Part shown: piece after piece, positions 6,479-50,658 of the stretch
How positions within the stretch are numbered: position 1 is the first letter of the stretch
Layout: each line of letters opens with the position of its first letter
DNA from: Olsenella sp. An270
GTDB taxonomy: Bacteria; Actinomycetota; Coriobacteriia; Coriobacteriales; Atopobiaceae
Assembly: GCF_002159735.1 (NCBI RefSeq)
Contig: NZ_NFJF01000003.1
Span: 186,001-250,000 of the forward strand
Length of the DNA: 64,000 nt
Reading direction: 5' to 3'
Notes under the pieces: generated by a model
Databases searched by the model: none
What the model was told of the DNA's origin: nothing
The model's input: only the letters and a program-made list of their open reading frames with translations
Program-made: the position numbers and the translations under genes

Positions 6479-7657
6479 ATGTCCCGTATGCACACCCATA
6501 CGTCGGATGCCGGTATCACCGCACGCTCCGTCACGCGCCGCGACGCGCTGCGCCTGCTGATCGGCGCCGGCATCTGCGCGACCATGTTCCCCGGCGTCGC
6601 CGGCGCCGAGACCACCCAGGAGAAGCTCGACGCCGCTCAGATGAGCTACGACCAGGCCCAGGCCGAGCTCGACCGCATCTCCTCCGAGTACGAGGCCATC
6701 GCGACCCAGCTCTCCGAGACGACCGCCCAGATCGCCGAGGTCACGGCCCAGATCGACGAGAAGCAGGCCCAGATCGACGAGAAGCAGGCCCAGATCGACG
6801 AGAAGCAGGCCGAGATGGAGGCCAAGCAGGAGGTCCTGGCGCGGCGCATGAGCTCGAGCTACAAGGCCGGCCCCTCCTCCACGCTCGACCTGCTGCTCTC
6901 GTCTGCGACCTTCGAGGAGCTCACGAGCAACATCTTCTACCTCGACAAGATCACCGAGGCGGACAGTGAGATCATCGCCCAGGTCCGCGAGCTCAAGGAG
7001 CAGCTCGAGGACGAGCGCGCCGAGCTCGAGGCCCAGAAGGCCGAGCTCGAGGCGCAGAAGTCCGAGCTCGAGGACCTTCAGGCGCAGCAGCAGGCGCAGC
7101 TCGAGGAGGCGCGCGCCAAGCAGCGGGAGTCCCAGGAGCTCGTCGACAACCTTTCAGCCGAGGTCCAGGAGCTCATGGCGCAGCGCGACGCCGAGCTGCT
7201 CGCCGCGCAGCAGCTGGCGCAGCAGATGCAGAACCAGGGCGGCGCCAACAGCGTGACCGACACCCCGCTCGTCACGGGCAACGGCTCGCTCTCCGCGGTG
7301 GTGAGCGCCTGCTATTCGACGCCCTCGCCGGGTTCCGGCCTGTGCGCGGCGTGGGTCACCAACGTCTTCGTCCGGGCTGGCGTCGGCTCGTTCTGGGGTA
7401 ACGCCGACGACATGTACTACTCCTGGTGCCACACCCTGCCGTCCAACATCCAGCCGGGCATGATCGTGGCCGTCAACTGCTCGCCCGCGAGTGCCGCCGG
7501 CCGCATCTACGGCCACATCGGCATCTACGTGGGCAACGGGACGGTCATGGACAACGTCGGCTACGTGCGGACCATCTCGCTCTCCGAGTGGGTCGGCTAC
7601 TACAGCGCGCTCGCCACGCCGCTGTGCGGATGGCTCGGCGGGATCGCGCTGTCGTAG
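6479..7657 (+). CDS. Secreted coiled-coil peptidoglycan hydrolase-like protein (PcsB-like N-terminus, CHAP/NlpC-like C-terminus)
   Basis: The 392-residue protein starts with a Tat-like signal (TRRDALRLL at 19-27, hydrophobic core, cleavage near AGA-E at about 42). Residues about 45-250 form a long coiled coil rich in Glu, Gln and Ala, with an exact threefold IDEKQAQ repeat. The C-terminal 120 residues carry Cys in GLCAAWV and His in YGHIGIYVG, the arrangement of cysteine peptidase/amidase domains. The architecture matches PcsB/CwlO-type cell-separation hydrolases, in which the coiled coil regulates the enzyme. ATG 6479 is preceded by AAGGAG. The substrate is inferred to be peptidoglycan. Confidence 0.8.
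   Translation: MSRMHTHTSDAGITARSVTRRDALRLLIGAGICATMFPGVAGAETTQEKLDAAQMSYDQAQAELDRISSEYEAIATQLSETTAQIAEVTAQIDEKQAQIDEKQAQIDEKQAEMEAKQEVLARRMSSSYKAGPSSTLDLLLSSATFEELTSNIFYLDKITEADSEIIAQVRELKEQLEDERAELEAQKAELEAQKSELEDLQAQQQAQLEEARAKQRESQELVDNLSAEVQELMAQRDAELLAAQQLAQQMQNQGGANSVTDTPLVTGNGSLSAVVSACYSTPSPGSGLCAAWVTNVFVRAGVGSFWGNADDMYYSWCHTLPSNIQPGMIVAVNCSPASAAGRIYGHIGIYVGNGTVMDNVGYVRTISLSEWVGYYSALATPLCGWLGGIALS
6749..6811 (+). repeat. Three perfect 21-bp tandem repeats inside the coiled coil
   Basis: Three identical 21-bp units (6749-6769, 6770-6790, 6791-6811) each encode QIDEKQA. Because the unit is 21 bp, slippage would change the coiled coil by one heptad without a frameshift, so length variation between strains is plausible. 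Confidence 0.9.
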
Positions 7658-7672
7658 CCGCAGCACGGGTCG

Positions 7673-8004
7673 CCCGGCCGATCCGGGTTTTCCGGCCCTT
7701 GTCCGCGCGTCGTCTAAGAAACCCCGCCCTTGTCCGGGTGACTTCCGAGAATGCCCGCCCTTGTCCGGGCGGCTTCCGAGAAGCCCCGCCCTTGTCCGCA
7801 GGCGCTCTAAGAATCGCGGCGTTTGTCCCGCCCCGGGCGGCGGAGCCGGGACAACCCCCGCAAATCCTAGATGGCGCGCGGACAAGGGCGACGTTTCTTA
7901 GACGGCCTGCGGACAAGGGCGACGTTTCTTAGACGGCCTGCGGACAAGCCCGACGATTCTCGGAGCGGTCGGCGACAAGGGCGGCGATTCCCAGAACGCA
8001 CGGC
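7673..8004. repeat. Inverted array of ten 31-bp units around a 22-bp palindromic centre
   Basis: Five units in reverse orientation (3' ends at 7703, 7734, 7765, 7796, 7827) and five in forward orientation (starts 7850, 7881, 7912, 7943, 7974) all have an exact 31-bp period. Each unit begins GACAAG, usually GACAAGGGCG, and has a TTCTTAGA or TTCTCGGA block about 14 bp in; the last 8-10 bp vary. The centre 7828-7849 is G+C-rich and palindromic. Two adjacent forward units are identical. No gene is seen between 7658 and 8093; the array fills it. A related array lies at 14097-14314. Confidence 0.9.
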
Positions 8005-8093
8005 ACGCCGCGGACCGCTCGGGCGAGAAGAACGGTGCGCTCGGGTATACTCCCTACGTCCGATTACGTTCGCCCGCGTCCGAAGGGAGCCGC

Positions 8094-9035
8094 ATGGAGG
8101 ACCTCGAGCCGTCGGTCCCTCGCACGCCCACGCAGGCGGTCCTGCGCATGGTGTCGATCCTCATGGGCGGTATCGGCGCGCTCGTCCTTGTCGGCGGGCT
8201 GCTCGTGCTCGTTCCGGGCGTGCTCGGCGGGAGCGACCTGTGGGCGTCGGTCACCTTTGGCGTGATGATCCTCGTGGTCGCCGGTCTTCTCGTCCTCACG
8301 GCGGTTCTCGGCCTCGCTGCCTCCAACAACTCGGCGCGCGTGGGGCCGTACCGGTTCCTGTGCTATCTCGTGGGCCTCGCCGTGCTGGTGGCCATCGTGT
8401 GGGGCTGGGGGATGGGCACGTTCATCCTGTTCAACCCCATCGTCCTCACCACGACGATCGTCTACGTGCTGATCTGCTCGCGCCTGGCCGACAAGGTCAA
8501 GGAGGAGCACGACCGCGGCGTTGAGGGCGAGACGTTCCTGCGCTCGCGCCACCAGCGCGTGCTGCACCTGCTCTCCGAGCTCGTCATCCTGAAGGGCGTG
8601 CTCACCGTCGTGGTGGTCGTCGTGATCGGCGCGGGGCTCGTCGTCTACGGGGAGGGCGAGCGGGCGGTCATCTCGGGCGTCCCGGTGACGGTGACGGGCA
8701 CGCTCTACGCGCTGCTGGCGTTTGGCGGCATCTCCGCGGGCCTGGCCGTTGGCGTGGGGGCGCTCGGCATCTGGGGGTCCAACCGTCCCCAGAGGATCAA
8801 GCCGTTCCTGGTGGTGGCCGCGCTGACGCTGCTGCTCGATCTCGTCCAGGTGGTCGGGCATGTGGTGGAGCGCGGCGTCTTCGGCTTGTCGTTCGACCTC
8901 GTGCTCGACGTCGTATTCATGGCGGTCTGCGTCTACCTGGCCGTTCGCATCGACCGACAGCCCACGCCCGAGGAGCTCGCCGCCGCTGCCGGCGTCGCCC
9001 TCGTGGCCGGGCCCGACCTCACGGAAGAATCATGA
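8094..9035 (+). CDS. Multi-pass membrane protein of unknown function
   Basis: The 313-residue protein has about eight hydrophobic helices (roughly 20-42, 52-75, 86-102, 104-125, 160-182, 200-225, 235-260, 265-290), a charged cytoplasmic loop around 128-155 (DKVKEEHDRG), and a short acidic tail. I do not recognise the family. ATG 8094 follows GAAGGGAG. Its stop overlaps the alpha-amylase start (ATGA, 9032-9035), so the two are probably translated together, although a functional link to starch metabolism is not evident. Confidence 0.7.
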   Translation: MEDLEPSVPRTPTQAVLRMVSILMGGIGALVLVGGLLVLVPGVLGGSDLWASVTFGVMILVVAGLLVLTAVLGLAASNNSARVGPYRFLCYLVGLAVLVAIVWGWGMGTFILFNPIVLTTTIVYVLICSRLADKVKEEHDRGVEGETFLRSRHQRVLHLLSELVILKGVLTVVVVVVIGAGLVVYGEGERAVISGVPVTVTGTLYALLAFGGISAGLAVGVGALGIWGSNRPQRIKPFLVVAALTLLLDLVQVVGHVVERGVFGLSFDLVLDVVFMAVCVYLAVRIDRQPTPEELAAAAGVALVAGPDLTEES

Positions 9036-13498: not shown

Positions 13499-14110
13499 AT
13501 GGAATTCGTGATCGTCTACCTGCTCGTGAACATCGCCGCCGGCGCCGTCGCCTGCTTCTTTGGCAAGCGCCTCTTCTACGTGGTGCTCGGCCTGCTCGTG
13601 TTTCTCGGCGTGTTCAACATCGCGCTCTCGTCCACGAACGGGTCCGCGCTCTCGTTCGTGATCGCCGCCGTGCTCGGCGTGGTCGCGGCGCTCCTCTCCA
13701 AGTTCGTCTACAGGGCAGGCGTCTTCCTCGTGGGCTTTGCCGCGGGCGCCGCGCTCGGCTTCGTGGCCACGATGCTCCTCCCGCAGGAGGCGGGCGACTT
13801 CCTCGGCGTGATCATGGTCGTGGCCGGCCTGCTGCTGGGCCTCGCCGCCGCGCACTGGTCCGACCTCGCCGTGCGCGTGGGCACCGCCTGGACGGGTGCC
13901 ACGTTCGTGGTGCCCAACGTGCTCGCCGCCGTCCTCGCGCTCCCGGCGCTCTCCGCGCTCGCCGTTCCCGGCGACGCCACGGCGACCTTCGACGCGCTCT
14001 CCGCCTACATCGCCAGCGACTTCTCCGCTGCCTACGGCACCGCGATCCTCGTGGGTACGATCGCCCTCGCCATCGTGGGCGTTGTGGTCCAGGCGCACCA
14101 GAAGGACTAG
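13499..14110 (+). CDS. DUF4203/TM198-like membrane protein
   Basis: The 203-residue protein has about seven short, Gly/Ala-rich helices (for example FFGKRLFYVVLGLLVFLG and RAGVFLVGFAAGAALGF), a pattern seen in the DUF4203 (TMEM198-like) family; this is a fold-level guess. ATG 13499 follows GGAGAGA. The stop codon TAG (14108-14110) lies within the CTAG of the first unit of the 31-bp repeat array, so the array abuts or overlaps the gene end. Confidence 0.65.
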   Translation: MEFVIVYLLVNIAAGAVACFFGKRLFYVVLGLLVFLGVFNIALSSTNGSALSFVIAAVLGVVAALLSKFVYRAGVFLVGFAAGAALGFVATMLLPQEAGDFLGVIMVVAGLLLGLAAAHWSDLAVRVGTAWTGATFVVPNVLAAVLALPALSALAVPGDATATFDALSAYIASDFSAAYGTAILVGTIALAIVGVVVQAHQKD

Positions 14111-14314
14111 GAATCGCCGCCCTTGTCCGCCGTGCCTCTAGAAATCGCGGGGGCTGTGCGCGATTTGGCGCCTATGGCGGTACAAGCCCGGCATTTTCTA
14201 GAAGATCTGGCGACAAGAACCGCCATTCCTAGAGCGTGCCCGCGCCCCGCGGTACAAGGCCGCGGTTTTCTAGAAGCCCCTCTGACAAGGCTCCGGTTTT
14301 CTAGAAGGGAGCGG
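14097..14314. repeat. Second inverted array of 31-bp units around a 22-bp centre
   Basis: Two reverse units (3' ends at 14127 and 14158) and four forward units (starts 14181, 14212, 14253, 14284) carry the same pattern as 7673-8004: GACAAG or TACAAG at the start and TTCTAGA about 14 bp in. The centre 14159-14180 is again exactly 22 bp. A 10-bp insertion separates the second and third forward units. The first reverse unit overlaps the end of the preceding gene and supplies its stop. Confidence 0.85.
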
Positions 14315-28909: not shown

Positions 28910-29144
28910 TTGCATGAAATGGTCTCTCGTGCAGCGTTGGGGGCGTTTTCAAGATCAAAACCGGCGTTCGTGTAGCGTAAAAATCGACCGAAACTCGACT
29001 TTTCCTTCCGTCTCGCAGGGTTTTCCCAGATAGCAATATCAATATCAAAATTAGATTCCGAAAATGGGGAGTTTTTACGCTACACGAGTCGACGTTTTAA
29101 TTTCTGAGACGGCGTTATGTCGCACGAACGTTGCTTTTATGCAA
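28910..29144. mobile_element. MITE-like element, copy 1 (235 bp)
   Basis: TTGCAT and ATGCAA ends delimit a 235-bp imperfect palindrome. The outer arms share CTCGTGC or TTCGTGC motifs, and the inner arms carry TTCGTGTAGCGTAAAAA and its near-complement (17 bp). The AT-rich core with AGCAATATCAATATCAAAA matches the core of a second copy at 48166-48398. It encodes no protein. It fills most of the 373-bp gap between the C69 peptidase and DAHP synthase genes. Confidence 0.75.

Positions 29145-48165: not shown

Positions 48166-50658
<2,493 letters not shown>

Follow-up and report, generated by a model that had tools for sequence, protein, structure and literature searches.

Among described systems, the closest counterpart of the one reported here consists of REP/BIME repeats and the RAYT genes, coding for Y1 transposases, that mobilise them (Nunvar 2010, PMC2817692; Bertels 2011, PMC3116915; Bertels 2021, PMC8049555). 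RAYT genes are flanked by inverted repeats with which they co-evolve, change faster than their neighbours and correlate with repeat abundance (PMC2817692). REPINs form a population that is copied at a low rate (PMC8049555). A second point of comparison is provided by operators of AbiEi-type antitoxins. The AbiEi protein of S. agalactiae and Rv2827c of M. tuberculosis bind inverted repeats of 23 bp that lie either 3 or 13 bp from each other, a difference of 10 bp, and cooperativity is positive in one case and negative in another (PMC7319586). In these systems two or four sites lie at one promoter, dispersed arrays are absent and the protein has a toxin partner. A third comes from the nucleases of the Vsr, DUF559 and REase_MTES_1575 group (PF04480 and PF18741; MTES_1575 in PMC3710099), none of which is described in these sources as having cognate repeat arrays.

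In this study, we analysed 64 kb of DNA from Olsenella sp. An270 (the window), in which a first-pass annotation had noted an unusual tandem array. The sequence read comprised stretches around arrays and around paralogues of a candidate gene, together with a sample of relatives. The array looks like one part of a new system that pairs a protein with a population of repeats.

RESULTS

Architecture of the array

Ten units occupy window positions 7682-7995 (Table 1), five in reverse and five in forward orientation, facing away from a centre of 22 bp. The register of all ten is exactly 31 bp, with a linker of about 9 bp, and the stop codon of the NlpC/P60-like hydrolase gene lies about 25 bp upstream of the array. 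Over the whole window, the pattern GACAAGN8TTCTNAGA with three mismatches or fewer was matched 21 times, against 7.4 expected, and none of 100 shuffles reached 21. Both the exact register and the shuffles bear out the two opposed 31-bp tandem arrays of five units each described by the first-pass annotation. Its palindromic centre did not hold up, being no conserved palindrome but a mirror tendency confined to the outer 3 bp or so. The TTCTnAGA-like block that it named is real but is better written TTYYYRGA: among 819 units compared, CAA, TT and GA were almost invariant, and positions 18-19 formed a pyrimidine-purine step alternating between TA, CG, TG and CA. It had been right in setting the layout apart from CRISPR, since the two halves are opposed and the linker is about 9 bp long, rather than near-identical repeats with unique spacers in one orientation. 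In the second family-A array of the window, the step from 14212 to 14253 is 41 bp, that is, 31 bp plus one helical turn.

Table 1. Coordinates of the arrays, neighbouring genes and candidate partner gene (window positions unless a contig is given)
Feature	Coordinates	Strand	Description
NlpC/P60-like secreted hydrolase gene	6479..7657	+	annotated by eye
Left half-array	7682..7827	-	five units spaced 31 bp: 7682-7703 (degenerate), 7713-7734, 7744-7765, 7775-7796, 7806-7827
Centre	7828..7849	.	22 bp separating the innermost units
Right half-array	7850..7995	+	five units: 7850-7871, 7881-7902, 7912-7933, 7943-7964, 7974-7995
Membrane protein gene	8094..9035	+	3' of the array; orthologous-site marker in 31 genomes
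Second family-A array	14106..14305		units 14106-14127 (-); 14181, 14212, 14253, 14284 (+)
Probable array of another unit family	28916..29098		GCTRCACGAGCnAnCRTTTT, 41-bp step; reverse left, forward right
Array of the same other family	48171..48393		40-bp step; reverse left, forward right
Candidate partner gene	G000:C1:127515-128600		362-aa product

The motif GAGAAGAAC was also seen in the window, at positions 8025, 15987 and 58520, and at many other loci. There were 63 occurrences in 309 kb, whereas permuted 9-mers averaged 1.5. Of the 63, 41 were intergenic or near gene starts, and the motif was present in the relatives checked as well.

Dispersal in the host genome

The 31-bp unit of the window array is referred to as family A. 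A pattern search of the host genome (G000, 2.0 Mb) allowing up to two mismatches returned 251 units, compared with 10 for a reversed-pattern control, and reading the surroundings brought the total to 346 units in 47 arrays. Whether the copies cluster or scatter had been an issue for the first-pass annotation, as had random partial matches or a period lost in relatives, either of which would have spoken against it. They are scattered across the chromosome, exceed the control by far and keep their period in relatives. In all 47 arrays, reverse units stand on the left and forward units on the right. Same-strand spacings were exactly 31 bp in 244 of 254 cases, and the starts of the innermost units were separated by 23 bp in 30 arrays and by 54 bp in 10, the latter having one worn inner unit. 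Larger deviants in the host genome and its relatives measured 41, 44, 12, 13, 20 and 64 bp, mostly shifts of 10-11 bp in either direction.

Family-A arrays are intergenic and located just 3' of stop codons. For 42 arrays the gene context was tandem (17 + 9), convergent (11) or, in only 5, divergent. The neighbours, named by eye, are unrelated housekeeping genes; the murG-murC and rpmF-plsX gaps are examples. In ParR/parC and other iteron arrays, too, roughly five direct repeats face another such set, a layout that would suit a cooperative filament. Those occupy a single plasmid locus, whereas family A is spread over 47 chromosomal loci. A search for a phage or plasmid origin gave no array match in viral contigs, plasmids or phages, and nothing was found in the literature on repeats of this bacterial group.

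Several contigs end in or beside arrays: C1 (start), C7 (both ends), C9 (end) and C10 (end) of the host genome, and C4, C6 and C22 of Atopobium sp. UBA1382 (G264). This suggests that family-A arrays break short-read assemblies. The longest half-array seen, with 11 forward units, adjoins the cognate gene in Olsenella uli An820 (G033; L059, 3150-3636).

Distribution among relatives

Apart from the host genome, family A was found in G033, G264 and an uncultured Olsenella (G305). It was not detected in the other 26 genus members searched, except for single chance-level matches, or in any other genus sampled. Thermophilibacter provencensis (G188) carries two family-A arrays, without the partner gene proposed below, and the island that contains them is 97-98% identical to the host genome; the sequence points to arrival of these arrays by transfer, the species being otherwise without family A. 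This is a PTS island (L069-L070, G188:C3:322000-357000), and IS3-type transposase genes adjoin one of its arrays. A partner sought among the genes around the two arrays proved a false lead, since the island with its PTS and IS3-type transposase genes had been transferred.

For 62 of the 69 arrays of other genomes, the flanks mapped beside a host-genome array. None of the 69 mapped to an array-free part of the fetched host-genome stretches, which had been chosen around arrays. We take family-A arrays to be vertically inherited at orthologous positions. Clean empty sites were also observed: 20 bp in G196 correspond to 325 bp in the host genome, and 6 bp in G307 to 254 bp. Internal branches of the species tree are short and its resolution is poor, and array-bearing species are interleaved with array-free ones, so losses of arrays are likely.

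A candidate partner gene

In the host genome and in G264, family-A arrays stand on either side of one gene, the candidate partner, which codes for a 362-aa protein (Table 1). Its orthologues in G305, G264 and G033 are 76-82% identical and all flanked by arrays. The locus is syntenic in 11 genomes, between an ABC transporter gene and a DUF308-like gene (assigned by eye), and the adjacent transporter is 95-97% identical in most of them. Among the nearest eight species, all four with an intact orthologue have family-A arrays and none of the four with a decayed or absent one does (G196, G062, G307 and G299), a pattern that does not amount to eight independent events because the species tree is poorly resolved. 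The G196 copy is decayed: its FDYNGGxH motif reads FDCTGDAP, its 3' end and array are gone and its frame runs into the neighbouring gene. The best matches in G062, G307 and G299 were 47-49% identical, so that these three lack a close orthologue. As judged from these genomes, family-A gene and arrays were lost together, and the 362-aa protein would most likely be the binder of family-A units.

Paralogues with their own unit families

Every genus member carries several to a dozen or more paralogues of the 362-aa protein. Inverted tandem arrays were found on both sides at 26 of 40 paralogue loci and on one side at 6; two more loci, G307 L209 and G188 L205, proved to be flanked on closer reading. 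Unit and period vary by paralogue, with periods of 31, 40-42 or 62 bp. The left and right units of one locus matched at 16.65 of 20 positions, compared with 11.76 (sd 1.46) between loci and 11.65 when the comparison was made in the wrong orientation. Matching units on both sides were present at 20 of the 40 family loci but at 0 of 110 control genes. Moreover, unit similarity rose with protein identity (Mantel rho 0.287, reached in 0 of 5000 permutations). At a single locus, the units of orthologues were GACAAGGGCGGCGATTCYYRGA with a 31-bp period in G000, GAACCCCGCCGATTCCGGGACG with 41 bp in G300, GACAAGCGCGAATTCCAGGACG with 40 bp in G306 and GTACACCGGCCGGCATTTCTCG with 42 bp in G294, from which we infer that the unit drifted along with the orthologous gene. 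No arrays were visible at the close paralogue G291 L200, and distant homologues in other families were mostly without arrays.

Besides family A, two other unit families are dispersed, mostly together with their own gene. The G300-type unit (family C) was counted 93 times in G300 and 110 times in G062, while the control gave hardly any matches. A close orthologue of the family-C gene is missing from G062, so arrays can persist after loss of their gene. In the same genome, the family-C unit and another family fill sites that hold family A in the host genome. The unit of a second paralogue is dispersed in G000, G196, G239, G294, G298 and G307, and its gene, 67-76% identical, is found in all of these but G298. 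The other unit family seen in the window (Table 1) resembles the unit beside a distant paralogue at G000:C3:10074.

It should be noted that de novo array matches in relatives include some other kinds of repeats, such as alternating 62-bp repeats in G196. Another dispersed repeat, AAACGTTGGAAGTCGCGTATT, alternates in orientation at three loci of that genome (L172, L174 and L178), and the pair recurs every 62 bp. A CRISPR-like array with a 61-bp period adjoins an IS200-like transposase gene in G120 (L139, 2136-3357). RAYT genes were seen at L150, L148 and L142 (G033, G188 and G182, respectively), and two of these genes lie between GGGACAG repeats.

Features of the 362-aa protein

Searches of the 362-aa family against Pfam, NCBIfam, PADLOC, PHROGs and PDB sequences gave no match above cut-off, and no relative was found in viral contigs. 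By these comparisons the family, a fast-evolving one, appears to be undescribed and is unnamed in the family databases searched. Eight of 30 members match Vsr-type REase models over the C-terminal region, below curated cut-offs. Distant homologues from other Coriobacteriia match more strongly (REase_MTES_1575 up to 1.7e-5, DUF559 0.011), with a best REase_MTES_1575 score of 25.2 bits, under the curated threshold of 38.2. The match is weak but consistent and covers the C-terminal 80 residues or so of the array-associated proteins. D225, Y244, G246 and H249 are invariant in the 30 sequences, as is E181, and position 243 is E or D. Viewed as a possible acidic catalytic set, these residues are decayed in G196, the genome without family-A arrays. 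A Vsr/DUF559-like nuclease fold of the C-terminal domain is therefore likely, as far as profile matches below threshold can indicate. The N-terminal half is conserved as well, and its likeness to AbiEi proteins was judged by eye only. An AlphaFold prediction from two sequences had a pLDDT of 34, and the model was not used.

DISCUSSION

The array is probably a polar set of sites of about 22-23 bp, placed at whole helical turns, for a DNA-binding protein that is most likely the 362-aa product. Between orthologous arrays, core identity was 0.86 and linker identity 0.43, in flanking DNA that is mostly 85-90% identical; the units are thus preserved as recognition sites amid sequence that keeps changing. 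That a protein binds cooperatively along one face of the DNA, as proposed in the first-pass annotation, gains support from the rigid 31-bp period and its deviants of about 10-11 bp, from the sister periods of 40-42 and 62 bp, and from the conservation of cores but not linkers. The arrays would fit polar, helically phased protein sites.

The same annotation had offered a long RNA hairpin instead. If transcribed, the array could act as a terminator, an RNase III substrate or a source of small RNA, and its strand does fold strongly (z -7.0), because the halves are inverted, in a location just downstream of stop codons that would suit such a role. However, pairing between the arms at linkers and variable positions was no better within an array (0.352) than between arms of different arrays (0.339), nor was pairing in the centre (0.329 against 0.326). 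Single units folded worse than shuffles (minimum free energy of -5.0 versus -6.0 kcal/mol), and no long-range covariation was detected. This lack of compensatory pairing rejects a selected RNA or cruciform hairpin. Period and deviants match turns of the DNA helix, and arrays lie inside gene clusters that are usually co-transcribed (murG-murC, rpmF-plsX), so we regard an RNA role as very improbable. A search for RNA families in the window found none. Mobilisation of REP/BIME repeats by a RAYT is the least probable reading of all, although much of the behaviour is shared: the repeats are extragenic, 3' of genes and in more than 100 copies; cognate inverted units bracket a single, fast-evolving, vertically kept gene and co-evolve with it; their abundance goes with the gene in family A and likewise in the second family, family C in G062 being the exception; and RAYTs occur in relatives (28 of 31 genus members). 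Yet PF01797 (Y1_Tnp) had 0 matches in the host genome, of which 1-2% is missing, the RAYTs of relatives are flanked by other, GGGACAG-type repeats, and the array-associated gene matches no transposase profile. Family-A units are directional rather than palindromic and do not fold, and they keep a fixed outward polarity around a dyad at helical spacings. The system is therefore RAYT-like in behaviour but no member of that group, lacking both a Y1 transposase in its own genome and a palindromic unit, in agreement with the first-pass annotation, which did not recognise it as REP.

The arrays might also be ordinary operators of a transcription regulator, for instance an AbiEi-type antitoxin, with the dispersed copies as its regulon. 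The 23-bp inverted repeats of AbiEi are close in size and placement to the unit described here, and an array flanks its own gene. This is an unlikely explanation for arrays that hug the 3' ends of unrelated housekeeping genes and so seldom lie between divergent ones. Nor is a toxin gene adjacent in any of the 11 syntenic genomes, and the AbiEi profile matched none of the 30 members; one distant homologue gave an E value of 0.24, outside the expected region. Less easily set aside, though still rather doubtful, is a purely host-serving role as chromosome-structure sites (insulators, bridging, nucleoid) bound by the 362-aa protein and never copied as an element would be. Species that are 85-90% identical in nucleotide sequence have retained arrays at orthologous positions, and strict phasing and polarity would suit bridging filaments. 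Against this, close relatives manage without family A and have clean empty sites (G196, G307). The presence in one genome of several independent unit families, all of which have a gene of their own, is also more suggestive of elements than of one host function.

Under the preferred reading of polar sites for the 362-aa protein, one monomer would bind each non-palindromic, directional unit, side by side on one face of the DNA. Since the units share that face, neighbouring monomers would touch, and two opposed rows of protein would spread outwards from the dyad centre. The arrays flanking the gene would probably serve autoregulation and identify the founding copy. The others, about 45, occupy gaps just 3' of stop codons throughout the chromosome. 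Protein and units co-evolve, and loss of one tends to go with loss of the other, a behaviour shared with RAYT-REP systems. The dispersed arrays would be either a population copied at a low rate, like REPINs, or structural sites that may benefit the host, for example in chromosome organisation. More tentatively, the nuclease-like protein may cut or nick its own arrays and so copy or convert them between sites. This would make a gene-plus-array population without a transposase. Each genome would have several independent families, and their dispersed arrays could all switch jointly to another unit and another helical period (31 bp in the host genome, 41 bp at matching array-bearing sites of G062); we hold this extension to be possible rather than probable.

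RAYT-REP is the only precedent that we found for a vertically kept gene co-evolving with an extragenic repeat population. A second, unrelated solution, with a nuclease-like protein, self-specific families and helix-phased polar arrays, would show that such populations originated repeatedly. It would provide a test bed for why bacteria keep repeat populations, be it selfish copying, chromosome organisation or regulation. Genomes that naturally lost the gene, and the arrays with it, offer ready comparisons, and orthologous genes with their matching units may be read as a natural code for protein-DNA specificity.
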